Origin: an uncultured Clostridia bacterium
GTDB lineage: Bacteria; Bacillota; Clostridia; Oscillospirales; Ruminococcaceae
NCBI GenBank assembly: GCA_947630555.1
Contig: CANRIA010000007.1
Span: 17,205 to 81,204 of the forward strand
DNA: 64,000 nucleotides
Reading direction: 5' to 3'
Part shown: in pieces, positions 1,407 to 57,196 of the stretch
How the letters are laid out: each line of letters begins with the position of its first letter
How positions within the stretch are numbered: position 1 is the stretch's first letter
Program-made: the position numbers and the translations under genes
The notes under the pieces: model-generated
What the model saw: the letters and a program-made list of their open reading frames with translations, nothing else
Told to the model about the DNA's origin: nothing
Database searches by the model: none

Positions 1407-2033
1407 TCAGTCTATAATGCTCTTGGTCGGGCGGTCGTTGTATTCGTCTTTTGCACGTTTGCGCTTTCTTACGGCTGCAAATATTTTCATCGCAAGCAGT
1501 GCCGCCGCGCACACCGCAATTATTATAGAAGGGTAGAAAAACAGCATATATTTCACGTCCATCTTGCTGTTTTCGGGCGATACATAATAATTTTGCATAT
1601 AGTAGTGTATCTTGCCAACGAACTTCACGCCCTCGCTGAAAAACATAACGCTTCCGCCGCCTGCAAAAATAAATGCCAAAATATACTTTCGCAAAAACGC
1701 AAATACTATTCCCAAAGTAACGGATGCTATCTCTGCTAAAAGAAAATAAGCCGTCACTTTTTCAATATCGTTTATGCCCACAAAAAGTATTGCAATGGTC
1801 ATCACAAGCCCGAAAAACAGGCAGTTTACGGCATAAGGAACAAGCATTATCACCTTTATAGCTTTGTAGGCGATATGCTCCTTGGCTTTTGCGCTTTTTA
1901 TGTATTTTTTTGCCGATTTGCTCTGCGCGCCGTTTTTTGCCTTTAGTTTTTCCTGCTGTTCTTCGCGCTCAAGTTCTTCCTTTTCTCTCAGCTGCTTTGC
2001 CTTTTGGGCTCTTAATCTTGATTTTTTTGACAT
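1407..2033 (-). CDS. hypothetical membrane protein with charged coiled N-terminus
   Basis: ORF; start revised to MSKKSRLRAQKAKQLREKEE; several TM segments. Confidence 0.7.
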   Translation of the reverse strand: MSKKSRLRAQKAKQLREKEELEREEQQEKLKAKNGAQSKSAKKYIKSAKAKEHIAYKAIKVIMLVPYAVNCLFFGLVMTIAILFVGINDIEKVTAYFLLAEIASVTLGIVFAFLRKYILAFIFAGGGSVMFFSEGVKFVGKIHYYMQNYYVSPENSKMDVKYMLFFYPSIIIAVCAAALLAMKIFAAVRKRKRAKDEYNDRPTKSIID

Positions 2034-2093
2034 ACAAAAACTGCCTTCCGAATTTTTTATATTATACCATAAAAGCGTAAGCGTTATGGTATA

Positions 2094-2205
2094 ATTGTCC
2101 GATACGTCGGGAGCAGACCTTTTGGTCTGCGTATCGACGAGGACATAAATATATAATAAAATCATTTATGATTTTATTATAACACAAACGGCAGAGTAAA
2201 TTCAA
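2094..2205 (-). promoter_or_regulatory. Dispersed promoter+structured leader module, copy 1
   Basis: -35 TTGAAT / 18 bp / -10 TATAAT (reverse strand), palindrome over -10, then GTCCTCGTCGATACGCAGACC-AAAA-GGTCTGCTCCCGACGTATCGGAC; same sequence at 24796 and 57196. Confidence 0.75.
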
Positions 2206-17100: not shown

Positions 17101-19356
17101 ATGAAACGCAGAAATTTATTGCGCTGTGCGGCAGTTATGCTTGCGGCTGTAACGGCGGCAGGCTGCATGGCTTCATGCGCAGGAAAAGATAATTCGTCTT
17201 CGGGCGGAGAAGGCGAAAAGAAAGAAGATGTACACTACTACAACGGTGAGGACATCGATACAGGCTGGACTTGGGGCAACGTTCAGATAGTCGGCGGCGG
17301 ATACATACCCGGCATAATATATAATCCCACCGAAGAGGGGCTTGCATATCTGCGCACCGATATGGGCGGCGCATACAGGCTGAATAAAGAAACTAAGCGC
17401 TGGGAGTGCATTACCGACTGCATAGGCGCTGACGACTGGAACCTCAACGGCATTGAGTCTATCGCTACCGACCCCGTTGAACCAAACAGGGTGTATATTA
17501 CCTGCGGAACTTATATGTCGCAGGGAAGCGGCGCGATACTTTCTTCAAGCGATTACGGCGAAAACTGGGTAAAAACCGACCTGCCTTTCGGCGTTGGCGG
17601 CAACGAACTTGGCAGGGGCGCAGGTGAACGCCTTGCCATTGACCCCAACGACAACAGCATTATCTATTTCGGCTCACGCACCGAGGGACTTTACCGCTCA
17701 AAAGACTATGGCGCTACATGGCAGCCGGTAGAGTCTTTCCCTACCAAAGGCAAAATGACTGCCGAGGGCGCTTCAATGGGGCTTACGTTTGTGGCGTTCG
17801 ATAAATCGAGCTCTGAAAAAGGCGAGGCTACAAAAACCATATTTGTGGGCGCGGCTCTGGGCAGTGAAGACAACATTTTCCGCAGTGACGACGGCGGCGA
17901 AACTTGGTCGGTCATAAAAGATTCCAACCCCAACACTACCGAAAGATCCATTCGCTACCCCTATGAAGGCAAAGTCTCAAACGGCTTTTTGTATGTTACA
18001 TATGCAGACAAGGCTTTCCCGAATGATGCGAGCATGGGCGACGTTTGCAAAATAAACATCTCCACGGGCGAAGTTATAAACATAACCCCCACCGAGCACG
18101 CTTTCTGCGGTCTTGACGTTCAGGGAGATACGGTAGTTATTTCAACGGTGTGCTGCTGGGTGCCGCAGGATAACATTCTTGTTTCATACGACGGCGGCGA
18201 AACGTGGACAGGCTTCTGGGATCTAAGCAGCCAGAAAAACAACTACACTATGGACGTTTCAAACGCACCGTGGCTTGAATGGCACGGTCAGCTTAAACTC
18301 GGCTGGTGGACTTCCGCGCTGGCTTTAAATCCTTTCAATACAGAAGAACTCATGTACGGCACGGGCGCAACGGTCTATGGCACAAGCAATCTATCTGCCG
18401 TAAAAACGGGCGATATGAAGATAGATGTGCGCGCTATGGGCGTTGAAGAATGTGCAATTTCTGATATTGTTTCACCAAGCGACCCCACCGGCCCCGAACT
18501 TTATTCCACTATGGGTGATGTTTACGGTTTCAGACATGATGATGTAAATACTCCTCCGCAGCAGCATTTCGGCGATTTTGCTTCAACCGACTTAGCGGCT
18601 GCCGATGATGCGGCTCAGTATGTTGTAAGAGCCACCGAGCAAGGCGATATGCCCGTTACCTACAGTACCGACAGCGGCGACACCTGGCAGTATGTTGAAA
18701 CGCTGCCCGAAGGCGAAAGCGGCAAAGGCGGTCAGGTGGCTATGGCGTGCGACGGTTCATCGTTTATATGGATGCCCGGCGTTATAGGCTCGCAGGGGTA
18801 TGTTACAAGCGACTTTGGCAAAACATGGACACTGTGTGACGGTCTGCCCGGCGGCGCGCAGTTTATTGCAGACGGCGTTGACCCCATGCGCTATTATGCA
18901 GTTAAAGACGGCAGTTTTTACAGATCTGAAGACGGCGGCAAAACCTTTGAATACATTACCGCAATGCTTATGACAAAGTGCGAAATGGTCGCAAGCAGCG
19001 AAAAAGCAAACGAAGTATGGCTTGCAGCAGGCGGCGCGGTATTTAAAATGGATATGTCTAAAAATGATGCCCCCGTAAGGGTTTCAGCCGATATTACAGA
19101 GGCATATGCAATAGGTCTTGGCAAGGGCGCAGAGGGCTCTGACAGCATGGCTGTATACGTCATAGGCGCGGCTGGCGAGCAGGGCTGGGGCGTGTATATG
19201 TCAGATGACGGCGGCGCGACCTGGAAAAAGATAAACGACGACACCGAGCGCTGGGGCAACGTGAATAATAAAATAGTCGGCGACCCCAAAGTTTACGGCA
19301 GATGCTATATCTCAACCAACGGCAGAGGTATAATAATGGGCAATATCAACAGCTAA
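17101..19356 (+). CDS. GH74-like xyloglucanase / BNR-repeat lipoprotein
   Basis: Lipobox (TAAGC); WTWGNVQIVGGGYIPGIIYNPTEEGLAYLRTDMGGAYRL; repeated S-D-G-T-W motifs. Confidence 0.85.
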   Translation: MKRRNLLRCAAVMLAAVTAAGCMASCAGKDNSSSGGEGEKKEDVHYYNGEDIDTGWTWGNVQIVGGGYIPGIIYNPTEEGLAYLRTDMGGAYRLNKETKRWECITDCIGADDWNLNGIESIATDPVEPNRVYITCGTYMSQGSGAILSSSDYGENWVKTDLPFGVGGNELGRGAGERLAIDPNDNSIIYFGSRTEGLYRSKDYGATWQPVESFPTKGKMTAEGASMGLTFVAFDKSSSEKGEATKTIFVGAALGSEDNIFRSDDGGETWSVIKDSNPNTTERSIRYPYEGKVSNGFLYVTYADKAFPNDASMGDVCKINISTGEVINITPTEHAFCGLDVQGDTVVISTVCCWVPQDNILVSYDGGETWTGFWDLSSQKNNYTMDVSNAPWLEWHGQLKLGWWTSALALNPFNTEELMYGTGATVYGTSNLSAVKTGDMKIDVRAMGVEECAISDIVSPSDPTGPELYSTMGDVYGFRHDDVNTPPQQHFGDFASTDLAAADDAAQYVVRATEQGDMPVTYSTDSGDTWQYVETLPEGESGKGGQVAMACDGSSFIWMPGVIGSQGYVTSDFGKTWTLCDGLPGGAQFIADGVDPMRYYAVKDGSFYRSEDGGKTFEYITAMLMTKCEMVASSEKANEVWLAAGGAVFKMDMSKNDAPVRVSADITEAYAIGLGKGAEGSDSMAVYVIGAAGEQGWGVYMSDDGGATWKKINDDTERWGNVNNKIVGDPKVYGRCYISTNGRGIIMGNINS

Positions 19357-19380
19357 AAATGCAGTATAATTGATATAATG

Positions 19381-19421
19381 CGGCAGCGGACACCGTCAGA
19401 AAATGGCGATGTCCGCTGCCT
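19381..19421. terminator. Hairpin terminator
   Basis: GGCAGCGGACA...TGTCCGCTGCC then T-rich. Confidence 0.5.
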
Positions 19422-19800
19422 TTGTAGATTTTATTGCGAGTGTCGTAAGCGTATTAAATATTTGCCGCAAACATTTGGGCATAACTTCGGCAAATTCTAT
19501 GATGCTTTCGCATACTTTGCCATTAAAAAAATGCTTTCACTAATAAGTACACACGAAAAACGCAAAATGTTACAAAAATTTTTAAATTTCTTTTAGTTTC
19601 TACCTTTTGCACAATTTTATATATTTATATTTGTAAATATTGTATAAAAATCAGCCGACTTTCTGCCGTTGCGTACTTTTAGCCAAAGTGCGCGCGTTTT
19701 TTTCTGTAAAACTGTCAAAATGACGATTGACAAACAGCCCTTGATATGTTATATTTGTATGTGTAGCAAATACATCTGTTTGCAGGAGGTGTACTTCAAT

Positions 19801-20259
19801 ATGTCTGAGCGCAATGAAAACAGCGAAAACGGGCTTGTGGTGGTAAATAGCGAGGTGCTTCCCGAAATAATACTGAAAGTGCTTGAAGCAAAACGCATGA
19901 AAGCGCGCGGAGATGCCAAAAATTCTACCGAGGCTTGCAAGGCGGTCGGCATATCGCGCAGCGCTTATTACAAGTATAAAGACAGCGTTTTTACATACGC
20001 CGAAAAGCTTACAAACAAAATAATCTCTCTTTATTTTGTTCTGCGTGATGAAAAAGGCGTGCTGTCGGCAATAATATCAAAGCTGTATGAGTACAGCGTA
20101 AACATTCTTACCGTTAATCAGAACATTCCCGTTGATTCGGTGGCGGCAGTAACGGTGTCGTTCAGGTTTGAGGGCGCACAGATAGATACTTCTGTAATAC
20201 AGAAAGAACTTGCAAAGATAAGCGGCGTTGTAAGCGTAAAGCTTATTGCAGGCGAATGA
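19801..20259 (+). CDS. ACT domain protein (UPF0735/PheB-like)
   Basis: KNSTEACKAVGISRSAYYKYKDSVFTY + C-terminal ACT domain; AGGAGGT RBS. Confidence 0.85.
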   Translation: MSERNENSENGLVVVNSEVLPEIILKVLEAKRMKARGDAKNSTEACKAVGISRSAYYKYKDSVFTYAEKLTNKIISLYFVLRDEKGVLSAIISKLYEYSVNILTVNQNIPVDSVAAVTVSFRFEGAQIDTSVIQKELAKISGVVSVKLIAGE

Positions 20260-20308
20260 ACGTCGGCAGGAATATAAACATATCATTGTAATGAAAGGAC
20301 TTTTAAAA

Positions 20309-21550
20309 ATGAGCAGAAAGATAGCAGTTATAGGATACGGAGTAGTAGGTTCGGGCACGGTGGAGCTTTTTGAGATGAACCGTGAGAAGATAGAAAAGCG
20401 CGTGGGCTCGCCCATTGAGCTTGGTTATATTTTAGATCTTAAAGATTTCCCCGACAGCCCCTATGCAGATAAACTGGTGAAGGATTTCAACATTCTTCTG
20501 CACGACCCCGAAGTTGAGGTAGTTGTTGAATCAGCAGGCGGAGCGACTTTTGCATACAGCTACACAAGGGCTCTGCTGGAGGCAGGAAAGAGCGTTGTAA
20601 CATCGAACAAAGAGCTTGTAGCAAAAAAAGGCGCAGAGCTTTTAGCCATTGCCAAAGAGCACAACTGCAACTATCTGTTTGAGGCAAGTGTTGGCGGCGG
20701 CATACCTATAATAGGGCCTATCTACAGATGTCTTTCGGGCAATACGATTCAGGAGATAACAGGTATTCTCAACGGCACCACAAACTTTATTCTTACAAAG
20801 ATGATAAAAGAACAGCTTTCTTTTGAAGAAGCGCTGAAACAGGCGCAGGCAAACGGCTATGCCGAGGCTGACCCCACCGCCGACGTTGAGGGTCACGATG
20901 CTTGCAGAAAGATATGTATTCTGGGCTCTCTTGCATACGGCAAGCAGATAGACCCCGAAAAAATACACTGCTCGGGCATTTCAAAAATAACCATGGCAGA
21001 TGTTGACTATGCCGACGTTGCAGGTTATGTTATAAAGCTGATAGGCTCAGTAAAACAGACAAACGACGGCAGAATAGCCGCAAAAGTGTGTCCGCGGCTT
21101 GTTCCCAAAAAGCATATGCTCGCGCACGTTGACGATGTTTACAATGCAATATGCGTAAAGGGCGACGGCATAGGCGATGCGGTGTTCTATGGCAGGGGCG
21201 CAGGTAAACTGCCTACCGCTTCAGCTGTTGTGGGCGACGTTATAGACGCGCTGCGGCACAAGGGAACAAACATAGGCGTTTACTGGCAGCAGGCAGAAGA
21301 TGATATGCTTCTTCCTTACAAAGACGACGAAGCCGCCATGTATGTAAGGGTAAAAGGCGAAGATGCCCAGAAAAAATGCAAAGAGCTTTCTGAAATGTTC
21401 GGCGGTCTTATTTTCCTTGACAGGCGCATGAGCAAGAGCATTGAAGAAGCGGCATTCATAACTCCTTTCATGAAAGAGGCAGACATAGACAAAAGCCTTG
21501 CTATACTTTCACATTCTCTCAGCATAGAAAGCAAGATAAGGCTTCTGTAA
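20309..21550 (+). CDS. hom: Homoserine dehydrogenase
   Basis: IAVIGYGVVGSGTVELF, NKELVAKKG, GGIPIIGPIYRCLSGNTIQEITGILNGTTNFILT, C-terminal ACT-like region. Confidence 0.96.
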   Translation: MSRKIAVIGYGVVGSGTVELFEMNREKIEKRVGSPIELGYILDLKDFPDSPYADKLVKDFNILLHDPEVEVVVESAGGATFAYSYTRALLEAGKSVVTSNKELVAKKGAELLAIAKEHNCNYLFEASVGGGIPIIGPIYRCLSGNTIQEITGILNGTTNFILTKMIKEQLSFEEALKQAQANGYAEADPTADVEGHDACRKICILGSLAYGKQIDPEKIHCSGISKITMADVDYADVAGYVIKLIGSVKQTNDGRIAAKVCPRLVPKKHMLAHVDDVYNAICVKGDGIGDAVFYGRGAGKLPTASAVVGDVIDALRHKGTNIGVYWQQAEDDMLLPYKDDEAAMYVRVKGEDAQKKCKELSEMFGGLIFLDRRMSKSIEEAAFITPFMKEADIDKSLAILSHSLSIESKIRLL

Positions 21551-21568
21551 TAACGGAGTGACAGTATA

Positions 21569-22465
21569 ATGATAAGCATAAAAATACCTGCAACGAGCGC
21601 AAATCTCGGTGCAGGTTTTGATGCTCTCGGGCTGGCGGTAAGCCTGTATAACTACGTCGAAATGGAGGAGAGCGACAAAGTCGAGATAATCTCCGCCGAC
21701 GGCACTAAGATACCGACAGATGAGAGCAATATGGTGTATATTGCAGCGCGCGACCTGTTTGAAGTGTGCGGCAAAAAGCTGCACGGTCTTAAAATACGGC
21801 AAACCAACAACATACCCATGACAAGGGGCTTAGGCTCGTCGTCTGCCTGTATAGTCGCAGGGCTTGTGGGCGCAAACAAGCTGCTGAAATCGCCCTTAGG
21901 CAATAACGATATAGTCGACCTTTCCGCGCAGATAGAGGGTCACCCCGACAACACCGCGCCTGCGCTTCTTGGCGGTATAGTTACGGCGGTGTTTGACGGC
22001 AGAAAGGTTCACTGGGTAAAGCAGGAAGTGTTTACTAAACTGAAACTTGCCGCTGTGATACCGGATTTTGAACTGAGCACTACAAAAGCGAGAGCCTGCC
22101 TGCCAAAGCAGATAGACTTTCGCGATGCTGTTTATAATCTTTCAAGAGCCGCGCTGTTTTCGGCATCTCTCTTAACAGGCAAGTTTGAAAACCTTAAAAC
22201 AAGCGTTGATGACAGGCTTCACCAGCCCTATAGAATGGAGCTTATCCCCGGCGGCAAAGAGGTCTTTGAGATTGCCTATGCCCACGGCGCTTATGCTGTA
22301 TATGTCAGCGGCGCAGGGCCTACGGTAATGGCAATAGCAGACGAGGACAACGAATTTTTTGCAGGCAAGGTGCAGTTTTCTTTAGATAACGCAGGGCTTA
22401 CAGGCTGGAAAGTGCACGAGCTGAAAATAGACAACTGCGGTACGCAGATACTAGGTACGAATTAA
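21569..22465 (+). CDS. thrB: Homoserine kinase
   Basis: PATSANLGAGFDALGLAV, TRGLGSSSACIVAGLVGAN. Confidence 0.95.
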   Translation: MISIKIPATSANLGAGFDALGLAVSLYNYVEMEESDKVEIISADGTKIPTDESNMVYIAARDLFEVCGKKLHGLKIRQTNNIPMTRGLGSSSACIVAGLVGANKLLKSPLGNNDIVDLSAQIEGHPDNTAPALLGGIVTAVFDGRKVHWVKQEVFTKLKLAAVIPDFELSTTKARACLPKQIDFRDAVYNLSRAALFSASLLTGKFENLKTSVDDRLHQPYRMELIPGGKEVFEIAYAHGAYAVYVSGAGPTVMAIADEDNEFFAGKVQFSLDNAGLTGWKVHELKIDNCGTQILGTN

Positions 22466-22525
22466 CATAACAATTGCCCCTTTTTAATATAAATCGGAAT
22501 TTATTAAAGCAAAGAAGATGGTAAA

Positions 22526-22948
22526 ATGAGTAAAAAGTTAAGTATTATTTTGAAAATCATTTTTGAAACTATTATTGTATTTATTGAAGAGCATCTTTTC
22601 TATGTTACCATTTTAAGTAACGCCATGACTAAACGAAGTTTGATTATGTGGCTCACATTTATTTTCGGTTCGATTATTATTTCTGTTATAAACATTGTTT
22701 TTGTTTACATTTCAACAAAAAATATAGAATTAAAGCTAAAGAACATTTCTTTTCTAATTATATCTTCTATACTAGCAAGCATTGTCATATTAATATTATC
22801 CTTGTTATTTGATAAAGATTTTTTAGCATTGGTAGATTACAGAAACGAAATTGATTATTTTACAATTCTAATACTCTCAGTTTTAATTGATATATTGACA
22901 AGTATTTTTGTGTTGTTATTAAAAATACTTGTAAAAACCAAACACTAA
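22526..22948 (+). CDS. hypothetical AT-rich membrane protein
   Basis: 140 aa multi-TM ORF, composition unlike neighbours. Confidence 0.5.
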   Translation: MSKKLSIILKIIFETIIVFIEEHLFYVTILSNAMTKRSLIMWLTFIFGSIIISVINIVFVYISTKNIELKLKNISFLIISSILASIVILILSLLFDKDFLALVDYRNEIDYFTILILSVLIDILTSIFVLLLKILVKTKH

Positions 22949-23012
22949 GACTTAGTAATGCAAATTCTGATTTATCTTAGGAACACAATTTACCAAAGGC
23001 GGTGAACTACAT

Positions 23013-23726
23013 ATGAAAGGCAGATTTTTAAGCGGTATGCGTGACGGCATACCCATTGCGCTGGGATACCTTTCTGTGTCGTTCACTTTTGGCATTAAAG
23101 CCGTAAACGACGGCTTGTTTTGGTGGGAAGCGCTGCTTATCTCGATGACCAACCTTACCTCGGCTGGGCAGCTTGCAGGTATATCTGTGATCGCAGCAGG
23201 CGGCTCTCTTGTAGAAATAGCCATGACGCAGATAATCATCAATATGCGTTACGCGCTGATGTCTCTCTCCCTCACGCAGAAGCTTGACAAACACTTCACC
23301 AAAGGCAAACGCTGGCTTGCTGGCTTTGGCATAACAGACGAGATATTCGCCGTTGCAAGCGGCAGGCTGTGCGATGTAACCGTTTCGTATATGGCAGGGC
23401 TTATTACAACGCCGTTTGTCGGCTGGTCGCTCGGCACGGCTCTGGGCGCTCTGGCAGGCAATGTTTTGCCGCCATCGGTGCAGTCGGCGCTGTCGGTCGC
23501 TATATACGGAATGTTCGTTGCAATATTCGTTCCGCCTATGAAAAAGCACAAGAGCATTTTCTTTGTGGTAATGCTGGGTATAGCGCTGAGCTGCTGCTTT
23601 AAGTGGCTGCCGCTGCTTGGCAGAGTGTCTTCGGGCTTTGCAATAATAATCTGCACCGTGATAGCCGCAGCAGTCGGCGCAGTTGTATTCCCTGTAGATG
23701 ACGCAGAAAGCGAGGGCGCAGCATGA
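23013..23726 (+). CDS. azlC: AzlC family branched-chain amino-acid exporter subunit
   Basis: IPIALGYLSVSFTFGIKAVNDGL...TSAGQLAG, overlaps AzlD gene. Confidence 0.9.
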   Translation: MKGRFLSGMRDGIPIALGYLSVSFTFGIKAVNDGLFWWEALLISMTNLTSAGQLAGISVIAAGGSLVEIAMTQIIINMRYALMSLSLTQKLDKHFTKGKRWLAGFGITDEIFAVASGRLCDVTVSYMAGLITTPFVGWSLGTALGALAGNVLPPSVQSALSVAIYGMFVAIFVPPMKKHKSIFFVVMLGIALSCCFKWLPLLGRVSSGFAIIICTVIAAAVGAVVFPVDDAESEGAA

Positions 23727-24040
23727 GTTTTGAAAAATTTTTGCCATACCTCGCGGTAATGGCAGTAGTTACATATCTTATAAGAGCAGTGCCGTTTGCC
23801 TTGTTCAGCAAGCAGATAAAAAGCCGCTTTGCCAAAAGTTTTCTTTACTATGTGCCGTATGCCGTGCTGGCGGTAATGACCGTCCCTGAGATATTTTTCT
23901 CCCCTGACATGATAATTGCAGGCGTTGCGGCTCTGGCGGTGGCAGTGCTTTTGGCGTATAAAGAACGCGGTCTTCTTACAGTCGCGATGTGCTGTTCAGC
24001 AGCAGTTTTTGTTACGGAGCTTATCGCGAAGCATATATAA
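23723..24040 (+). CDS. azlD: AzlD family protein
   Basis: Four-TM ~105 aa, YLIRAVPFALFSKQIKSRF, ATGA overlap with azlC. Confidence 0.85.
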   Translation: MSFEKFLPYLAVMAVVTYLIRAVPFALFSKQIKSRFAKSFLYYVPYAVLAVMTVPEIFFSPDMIIAGVAALAVAVLLAYKERGLLTVAMCCSAAVFVTELIAKHI

Positions 24041-24095
24041 AATGCGCTTTTCAAAAAGCCTTGACAAATAAATTTTTTTGGTGTATAATATAAAT

Positions 24096-24188
24096 AGAAA
24101 AAGAGATACCGGCTGGTACGATAGCGGCTATCTCCCAAGATTATAGTTAAAATAACCGTTTGCTTGGAAGGTCAGCGGTTATTTTTTC
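24096..24188 (+). ncRNA. Putative antitoxin RNA, locus A
   Basis: Promoter TTGACA 24061-24066 / 17 bp / TATAAT 24084-24089; hairpin GAGATACCGGCTGGTACGATAGCGGCTATCTCCC; terminator AATAACCG...CGGTTATTTTTT. Confidence 0.7.
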
Positions 24189-24268
24189 TTGATATTTTTT
24201 ATAATCTCGTTTATACAAACGAGAATTATTATGAATAAAATCAATACAAGAATATCAATAATACTCAC
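24179..24268 (-). CDS. Putative small hydrophobic toxin peptide, locus A (29 aa)
   Basis: GTG start after GGGAGGTGGTATTT; (M)SIIDILVLILFIIILVCINEIIKNIKKK; own promoter TTGACA-18-TATAAT at 24397-24368 (-). Confidence 0.7.
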   Translation of the reverse strand: MSIIDILVLILFIIILVCINEIIKNIKKK

Positions 24269-24443
24269 AAATACCACCTCCCAACCCTATGTATTCAGAC
24301 ATAAGTCCGGACAAGGTTATAAGGGAGTATAGCCGCTACCGTTTTCGTACTTCACCGGTACAAATATATTATAACATATTCAGTCGATACTTGTCAACTC
24401 GCGCAGATTTCAAAAAGCCCTTGACAAATGTTTTTCTGTGGTG

Positions 24444-24547
24444 TATAATATAAATAGAAAAAGGAGCACCGGCTGGTACGATAGCGGCTGTCTCCTCTAA
24501 ACAACGATTGAATAACCGTTCAGCATTGGGAGCGAGCGGTTATTTTT
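24444..24547 (+). ncRNA. Putative antitoxin RNA, locus B (coordinates include -10)
   Basis: TTGACA 24421-24426 / 17 bp / TATAAT 24444-24449; conserved CACCGGCTGGTACGATAGCGGCTG hairpin; terminator at gene overlap. Confidence 0.7.
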
Positions 24548-24620
24548 TCTTGATATTCTTAATGATCTCATTTATTACAATGAGAAGCACTATGGTCAGA
24601 GCAATACTTGCTATATCCAT
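24540..24620 (-). CDS. Putative small hydrophobic toxin peptide, locus B (26 aa)
   Basis: MDIASIALTIVLLIVINEIIKNIKKK; promoter TTGACA 24750-24745, TATAAT 24726-24721 (18 bp). Confidence 0.7.
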   Translation of the reverse strand: MDIASIALTIVLLIVINEIIKNIKKK

Positions 24621-24795
24621 AAAATATCACCCCCACTCCTATGTATTCAGACATAAGCCTGGACAAGGTTATAAGGGAGAAATAGCCGCTACCGTTTTCG
24701 CACTTCGCCGGTGCAATTATATTATAGCATATTCAGTCGGCATATGTCAATAAAGGCACAGCCGACAAAATTATATAAAAAATTTAATTTTACTC

Positions 24796-24906
24796 TTGCT
24801 TTTGCAGGCGCAACGTGATATAATAAAATTATAAATGATTATATTATATCTTTTATGTCCTCGTCGATACGCAGACTAATGGGTCTGCTCCCGACGTATC
24901 GGACAA
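24796..24906 (+). promoter_or_regulatory. Dispersed promoter+structured leader module, copy 2
   Basis: TTGCTT-17-TATAAT, near-perfect 34 bp palindrome over -10, GTCCTCGTCGATACGCAGACTAATGGGTCTGCTCCCGACGTATCGGAC. Confidence 0.8.
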
Positions 24907-24966
24907 TTGGATAATACCGAACACTTCATACAAAATATATACATTTACATTTTAAGGAGCAGCAAC

Positions 24967-25515
24967 ATGGCGATATACCTTTATCATTATTACGATCAGG
25001 AAATAGGCCCTTTCAAAAATCTGTCGGCGCTTTCCGATGACGAGGCGAAGCAGATACTTCTCGATATGCGCGAAACAAAGCCGTATTCTCAGCCTGCGCA
25101 GAGAGATGTTCTTTACATGATGCGCCGCCGCCAGTACGAAAAAATAGCCTACGACAAATTCGTCGAGATAGGCGGCAAACCACAAAGGACTTATCCGCAG
25201 TATATGGTAGTAGAATACTGCAAATGGATGAGCGAGTGGTACCAGAACAGCGCATTCATAAAGATACCGATAGAGAAATTCAACAAAGATACTATCTCGT
25301 TCACATATGGCGATATGCCGCTGAATTTCAGCCCCTTGGAGGAAAGTGACAACAAGCCCTACCGCGGCAAGGTGTATAACTACGAGCAGATACTTAAAGT
25401 TATAGAAGAATACGGTCTGCCGCAGGAGTGGAACCCAAACGGTGAGCTGGGTCCCGAGAGATACATAGAAGTTCAGGTGTGGAGCGACGACGCTATTGCA
25501 GAGTATTTAAAGTAA
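24967..25515 (+). CDS. hypothetical protein
   Basis: ORF, AAGGAG RBS then MAIYLYHYYDQEIG. Confidence 0.75.
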   Translation: MAIYLYHYYDQEIGPFKNLSALSDDEAKQILLDMRETKPYSQPAQRDVLYMMRRRQYEKIAYDKFVEIGGKPQRTYPQYMVVEYCKWMSEWYQNSAFIKIPIEKFNKDTISFTYGDMPLNFSPLEESDNKPYRGKVYNYEQILKVIEEYGLPQEWNPNGELGPERYIEVQVWSDDAIAEYLK

Positions 25516-56939: not shown

Positions 56940-57050
56940 TTACGCCACACCTGCAATAGCGGTAAGCAGTATTCCGCCAACAATGCTAAGCCCCATGGCT
57001 ATTACCAGTATCCACGCAACTATGCGCTTTTTCTTCTCACGATTTTTCAT
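56940..57050 (-). CDS. Small single-TM protein (DUF4044-like)
   Basis: MKNREKKKRIVAWILVIAMGLSIVGGILLTAIAGVA; GAGGTGGTATT RBS. Confidence 0.6.
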   Translation of the reverse strand: MKNREKKKRIVAWILVIAMGLSIVGGILLTAIAGVA

Positions 57051-57085: not shown

Positions 57086-57196
57086 ATTGTCCGATACGTC
57101 GGGAGCAGACCCTTTGGTCTGCGTATCGACGAGGACATAAATATATAATAAAATCATTTATGATTTTATTATAACATATTCGCGCGAACATTTCAA
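57086..57196 (-). promoter_or_regulatory. Dispersed promoter+structured leader module, copy 3
   Basis: TTGAAA-17-TATAAT; perfect palindrome ATAATAAAATCAT-AA-ATGATTTTATTAT; GTCCTCGTCGATACGCAGACCAAAGGGTCTGCTCCCGACGTATCGGAC. Confidence 0.8.

Follow-up and report, generated by a model that had tools for sequence, protein, structure and literature searches.

The repeated module that stands in front of three unrelated genes in the window (the whole stretch of 64,000 nucleotides analysed here) is, judged by sequence comparison, very probably a short non-autonomous mobile DNA element of gut bacteria in the Ruminococcus group that inserts 3' of extended -10 boxes, TGnTATAAT. The pattern of filled and empty orthologous sites is most simply explained by an element that enters functional promoters and comes to lie precisely behind the -10 box. 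The element would thus leave the host -35 and -10 hexamers intact, while the downstream transcription unit would gain a leader of roughly 100 nt. With both hexamers intact, a common leader is added to unrelated genes and a regulon is mimicked. Promoters are usually damaged by mobile elements, or struck by chance; here the extended -10 box is apparently the target itself, a choice that is uncommon among mobile elements. The original prediction had taken the module for a candidate cis-regulatory RNA or operator regulon, an interpretation that is not supported, in view of empty orthologous promoters and of downstream units that share no function.

Anatomy and fold of the unit

The three near-identical modules, each behind a strong promoter, occur at the positions and on the strands predicted (Table 1), and the 20-mer GTCCTCGTCGATACGCAGAC is found exactly three times in the window against an expectation of 0 (100 shuffles). 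Their length, put at ~111 bp, had been underestimated, as copy 1 continues into a third hairpin (hp3) that is lost from copies 2 and 3. The -35 hexamers TTGAAT, TTGCTT and TTGAAA had been assigned correctly, but their spacing, given as 17–18 bp, is 17 bp in all three copies, with an extended TGnTATAAT. The AT-rich palindrome (hp1) is likewise real, its left arm being the -10 box itself. The -35 and -10 boxes are, however, not part of the module: the target promoter belongs to the host, and the remainder is an insertion that is missing in close relatives.

Table 1. Copies of the unit in the window, with their parts, target promoters and neighbouring genes.
Feature	Position	Strand	Description	Evidence
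Copy 1	2061..2175	-	complete 115-bp unit, between TATAAT and ATAAAAAATTCGG	sequence
Copy 1, target promoter	2176..2205	-	TTGAAT 2205-2200, 17 bp, TGT + TATAAT 2181-2176	
Copy 1, hp1 palindrome	2152..2181	-	left foot is the -10 TATAAT; TATAATAAAATCATAAATGATTTTATTATA	
Copy 1, folded core	2096..2145	-	helices P1-P3, conserved AUAC/UCC and U/NAUC internal loops	covariation, 80 distinct homologues
Copy 1, hp3 palindrome	2061..2095	-	ATTATACCATAACGCTTACGCTTTTATGGTATAAT; inverted target copy inside, end GGTATAAT	
Copy 1, neighbour	1410-2033	-	208-aa membrane protein gene downstream of unit	
Copy 2	24825..24907	+	unit 3'-truncated, hp3 lost	
Copy 2, target promoter	24796..24824	+	TTGCTT 24796-24801, 17 bp, TGA + TATAAT 24819-24824	
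Copy 2, hp1	24819-24848	+		
Copy 2, core	24856-24905	+		
Copy 2, neighbour	24967-25512	+	182-aa protein gene downstream of unit	
Copy 3	57086..57167	-	unit 3'-truncated, hp3 lost; 3' edge approximate	
Copy 3, target promoter	57168..57196	-	TTGAAA 57196-57191, 17 bp, TGT + TATAAT 57173-57168	
Copy 3, hp1	57173-57144	-		
Copy 3, core	57137-57088	-		
Copy 3, neighbours	56960-57050	-	36-aa TM protein (MKNREKKKRIVAWILVIAMGLSIVGGILLTAIAGVA), directly 5' of ung	

An intact unit is a non-coding sequence of ~115 bp, consisting of hp1, a three-helix core and hp3. TATAAT flanks the unit on both sides, at a distance of mostly 109–117 bp between the two. The 3' end reads TGnTATAAT, the right copy mostly carries the element's own n, and adjacent units in tandem have TATAAT in common. 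Terminal inverted repeats are absent by inspection, the ends being AAAATCATAAATG.. and ..CGCTTTTATGG followed by TATAAT. The foot of hp1 would pair with the TATAAT of the target, and the TGnTATAAT that ends hp3 would let a further unit sit behind it, giving tandem arrays. Such arrays exist, with a period of ~116 bp; several contigs of the present genome (C17, C40, C44) end inside element copies, so that assembly breaks probably conceal longer ones.

The core reads UGUCC-U-CGUCG-AUAC-GCAGACC..GGUCUGC-UCC-CGACG-UAUC-GGACA in all three window modules, with a predicted folding energy of -24.5 kcal/mol (z -5.0) for the core hairpin and -33.9 (z -6.7) for the module. In an alignment of 80 distinct homologues, which was fitted to the proposed structure and is hence biased towards it, 96.8% of the cells are paired and double changes occur in 8 of the 17 pairs (145 cells). 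Sliding the partners lowers pairing to 28–43%, and the raw sequences themselves plainly show paired swaps in each of the three helices. The middle helix interchanges CGUCG/CGACG and UGCAG/CUGCA, with 99.5% of the cells paired and both-side changes in three of five pairs. The helix CGAUACG/CGUAUCG proposed earlier must be given up, being paired in 76.6% of the homologue cells without any compensatory pair. Conserved unpaired bulges, also part of that proposal, are confirmed; the core has the conserved internal loops AUAC/UCC and U/NAUC.

Both palindromes keep their pairing while the inner sequences vary. The outer six pairs of hp1, TATAAT/ATTATA, are essentially invariant among 85 distinct examples, an invariance owed in part to the extraction of hp1 and hp3 by their TATAAT/ATTATA ends. 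A specific operator at hp1 is unlikely, since its arms differ between copies yet stay self-complementary. Solo hp1 palindromes are mostly degenerate or core-deleted copies; one isolated hp1-like palindrome without a core, located near ung behind TGCTATAAT in congener G002 (L370, near 2379 of the listed strand), is probably a core-deleted remnant. The hp3 arms have an apparent similarity to the XerD arms of dif.

Departures from pairing in the core comprise 41 G:T and 34 A:C, without a wobble bias towards sense RNA. A functional sense RNA should favour G:U, and the near-equal numbers therefore favour a structure at the DNA level. In hp3, departures on the plus strand lean to A:C (11 versus 2); read on the minus strand, most loops are C-GNA-G triloops or GNRA tetraloops. 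Loops of the d(GCGAAGC) type are very stable in single-stranded DNA. The departures and loop types of hp3 hint at folded bottom-strand DNA, short of proof. For the covarying core, a role as a fold recognised during mobilisation is likelier than one as a sensor.

Filled and empty promoters

For each of the three window copies, some congeners have an orthologous site that is empty, and at filled sites a unit or tandem array sits exactly 3' of the extended -10 box. The site of copy 1 is empty in G003, G004, G006, G007, G008 and G009, contains two tandem units in G005, and has the unit in the more distant G001. Its promoter is host sequence, which occurs without the element in congeners: in the empty G007, GTGTTATAAT is joined directly to AAAGTATAATAC, while in the filled G005 GTGTTATAAT is followed by two units, the last ending TTTTATGTTATAAT, and then by AAAGTATAATAT. 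At the site of copy 2, a complete unit is present in G006, G007 and G009; in G009 GATATAAT is followed by a unit ending TTTTATGATATAAT and by GGTAAGTTGG, hp3 having been lost in the present genome. The same site is empty in G005 (..GATATAATGTAATTTGG) and G008 (..GTTATAATGTAATTTGG); the promoter is retained without the element in G005, and G008 has TGTTATAAT there. The site of copy 3, in front of ung, is filled in the present genome only and empty in G001 and G003–G008 where readable, the -35 to -10 sequence of G005 being identical but without the element. Some of the empty sites could have been made by precise loss via recombination between the TATAAT repeats.

The 208-aa and 182-aa proteins downstream of copies 1 and 2 are without Pfam match and have orthologs in all ten congeners. 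Small ORFs similar to the 36-aa TM micro-protein precede ung in the congeners examined.

A search with a covariance model of the core, of the kind proposed earlier, finds 16 copies in the present genome (1.9 Mb, 45 contigs) and 8–21 copies in each of seven of nine congeners; the other two, G003 and G004, have no core. At the family level, under stricter filters, 18 of 299 sampled genomes and 8 of 126 genera match, and the core thus also occurs in further genera of the Ruminococcus group. The genomes compared are mostly MAGs. Among the matches listed in a pattern scan of named genomes, all are Ruminococcus, R. flavefaciens or MAGs; they include the R. flavefaciens isolates FD-1, XPD3002, YAD2003, SAb67, YL228 and MA2007, and MAGs labelled Oscillospiraceae, Clostridia, Clostridiales, Ruminiclostridium or Bacillota. 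Carriage by a phage or plasmid was rejected, as the viral contigs, plasmids and phages searched gave no match.

Nearly all copies point towards a gene. Among 123 copies with clear neighbours, 112 are gene-sense, two are convergent and nine have an opposite-strand ORF downstream (38 further copies overlap naive ORF calls and fall outside this count). This agrees with the predicted arrangement of a promoter and structured leader in gene-sense orientation before unrelated genes. The -10 box is TATAAT in 170 of 186 copies; TGn precedes it in 161 of 183, and TTG lies at exactly -23 in 102 of 183. The downstream units comprise 131 protein clusters, tRNA-Ser, tRNA-Pro and skipping-rope RNA, the proteins ranging from RecA-, UvrA-, PolA- and MreB-like (named by eye) to membrane proteins. 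The skipping-rope RNA (RF02924, a candidate sRNA; L029 5096-5193 on contig C1 of the present genome) lies ~43 nt 3' of an element copy, and its promoter is therefore element-occupied.

A regulatory leader RNA, controlling the downstream genes through a sensed ligand or a bound protein, would account for the covarying fold with its conserved unpaired loops, for the constant gene-sense position directly behind a promoter and for the orthologous genes that carry the element in more than one species or genus. The last are a minority of loci, and selection or hotspots could explain them. This interpretation is nevertheless improbable. The same promoters occur without the element in relatives whose proteins are 94–99% identical, presence is patchy, with none in two congeners, and the core shows no wobble bias towards sense RNA. 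The downstream units are unrelated, offer no regulon theme and include tRNA and sRNA genes; translation control or a regulon of a single pathway is therefore unlikely. Rfam gives no match to the element at the gathering threshold in the window and the 16 loci, in line with the predicted lack of a named riboswitch, and a permissive search of two loci (L016 and L019) gives chance-level matches only.

For a mobile element, the orientation follows from the asymmetry of the insertion target: insertion exactly behind a -10 box, with the promoter kept intact, always places the element in front of a gene. Random orientation or a match to an annotated mobile repeat had been named as evidence that would count against a regulon. 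Orientation is non-random and Rfam gives no match, yet the regulon is unsupported; as target polarity explains orientation without regulation, such a test would have missed a mobile element. An identical promoter and leader before unrelated genes need not imply regulation.

Target choice and possible mechanisms of mobilisation

The present genome contains 371 TGnTATAAT sites versus 78 for the reversed pattern, an excess which indicates that most are probably real promoters. TTG at -23 is commoner at occupied than at unoccupied sites (31/43 versus 48/164, p=8e-7), and occupied sites lie less often in coding DNA (2/43 versus 38/164, p=0.004), a contrast to which selection may contribute. Targeting of the -10 box would provide intergenic, low-harm sites.

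In 102 of 128 copies, the target base n is complementary to the left-arm base of hp3. When targets are permuted within genomes, 54.7 +/- 3.8 matches are expected versus 78 of 98 observed, a number reached in 0 of 20,000 permutations. For the base before TG, matching within genomes is not significant (p=0.5); the matching thus spans nTATAAT, and target choice appears to depend on it. Tracking of n by hp1 is at chance level (41/111). Where the left and right n differ, the right n is usually that of the element, with exceptions such as the copy 1 site of G005, where it equals the target n although the hp3 left arm mismatches. The insertion could therefore be target-guided and free of duplication, or proceed by a 7-bp crossover. 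Because n matches an internal base of the element, a guided choice of target can be tested directly.

The enzyme at work would be a recombinase or transposase that acts in trans and recognises the element in its folded form, perhaps as a single DNA strand; matching or pairing of bases across nTATAAT would guide it to its targets. Any single enzyme class is at best a tentative candidate. A tyrosine recombinase might take a circular form of the element and integrate it through a crossover inside the 7-bp overlap nTATAAT. The overlap-like identity, the matching of n, the right-end n at the G005 site and the tandem arrays are consistent with this possibility, and tyrosine recombinases are present in all ten congeners. 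Set against it are the right end, which usually follows the element where the two n differ, and the target, in which conserved arm-type sites are not seen. The single candidate tested, of 289 aa, occurs at 90–99% identity in six congeners that carry the element, while the searches of G003 and G004 did not find it. It was rejected, as most other element-bearing genomes have no ortholog and G010, where the core was not found, has one, so that co-occurrence failed. Contig C22 of the present genome has six tyrosine recombinase matches, in two opposed sets within 6 kb (18684-24845, L322); C22 and C50 of G001 have similar clusters.

Equally tentative is single-strand transposition as in IS200/IS605, in which hp3 itself would act as the guide and pair with its own end and with the target. 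The lack of terminal inverted repeats, the palindromes close to the ends, the position of the insert 3' of a fixed target and the internal inverted target copy that tracks n all fit such a mechanism, as do the minus-strand loops and the A:C departures of hp3. The failure of hp1 to track n does not. Moreover, among the ten genomes the Y1_Tnp domain (PF01797; IS200/IS605/RAYT) is absent from the present one and from every element-bearing congener, occurring as a fragment only in the element-free G003; the usual enzyme for short palindromic elements is thus missing here. Somewhat more doubtful is the more specific proposal that an enzyme guided by the inverted nTATAAT copy inserts folded DNA just behind the -10 box, perhaps where RNA polymerase has opened a single-stranded bubble; insertion would then follow transcription and the promoter would stay usable.

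Retro-mobility, by which a leader RNA that is always transcribed would enter promoters through reverse transcription or reverse splicing, is very improbable. Promoter insertion would guarantee transcription, and the core is folded and covarying, but the insert contains sequence upstream of the expected start site and the core is without sense-strand wobble bias. Reverse transcriptase (PF00078) is absent from nine of the ten congeners, including the present genome, G001 alone having one.

Relation to known systems

The mobile element is best described as a new family, PATE- or REP-like in anatomy but with specificity for the promoter -10 box. No mobile element that targets TATAAT or the -10 box was found in the literature covered, which excludes subscription journals. 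The attC sites of integrons resemble the element in their folded imperfect hairpin, conserved bulges, variable end loop and tandem arrays; here, however, there is no evidence of an integron integrase, there are no cassettes, and the crossover would lie outside the core, at TATAAT. The Rfam riboswitches and leader RNAs, too, are structured 5' leaders with conserved bulges, but the element differs in matching none of them, in its polymorphic presence at the same gene, in lacking a functional theme and in preceding tRNA and sRNA genes.

Like the MITE-like Correia, RUP and ERIC/RU-1 sequences (PMC2229807), the element is non-autonomous, shorter than 200 bp, AT-rich and intergenic, with stable hairpins in its transcript; most of those sequences are bounded by terminal inverted repeats and duplicate a TA target, whereas this element has no such repeats and a TGnTATAAT target. 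REP elements mobilised by RAYTs are thought to move via folded single strands and likewise have short imperfect palindromes, covarying stems and many copies (PMC3733652). The present unit differs from them in its greater length with three hairpins, its promoter target and its fixed orientation. In addition, it has neither a RAYT/Y1 gene nor a GTAG tag; no such tag lies beside the palindrome, and the sequence 5' of the core is TTTATG. The palindrome-associated transposable elements (PATEs) of Haloquadratum are also too short for a transposase gene, lack terminal inverted repeats, have near-terminal palindromes and insert adjacent to a fixed short target (PMC3119063). The PATE target is a sequence of 4–5 bp instead of an extended -10 box, and the present element differs further in its conserved three-helix core, its tandem arrays, the lack of an IS200-type gene and its unrelated host. 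They pose a comparable puzzle as to the enzyme, since their insertions differ between strains even though one strain has its IS200-type genes as pseudogenes (PMC3119063).
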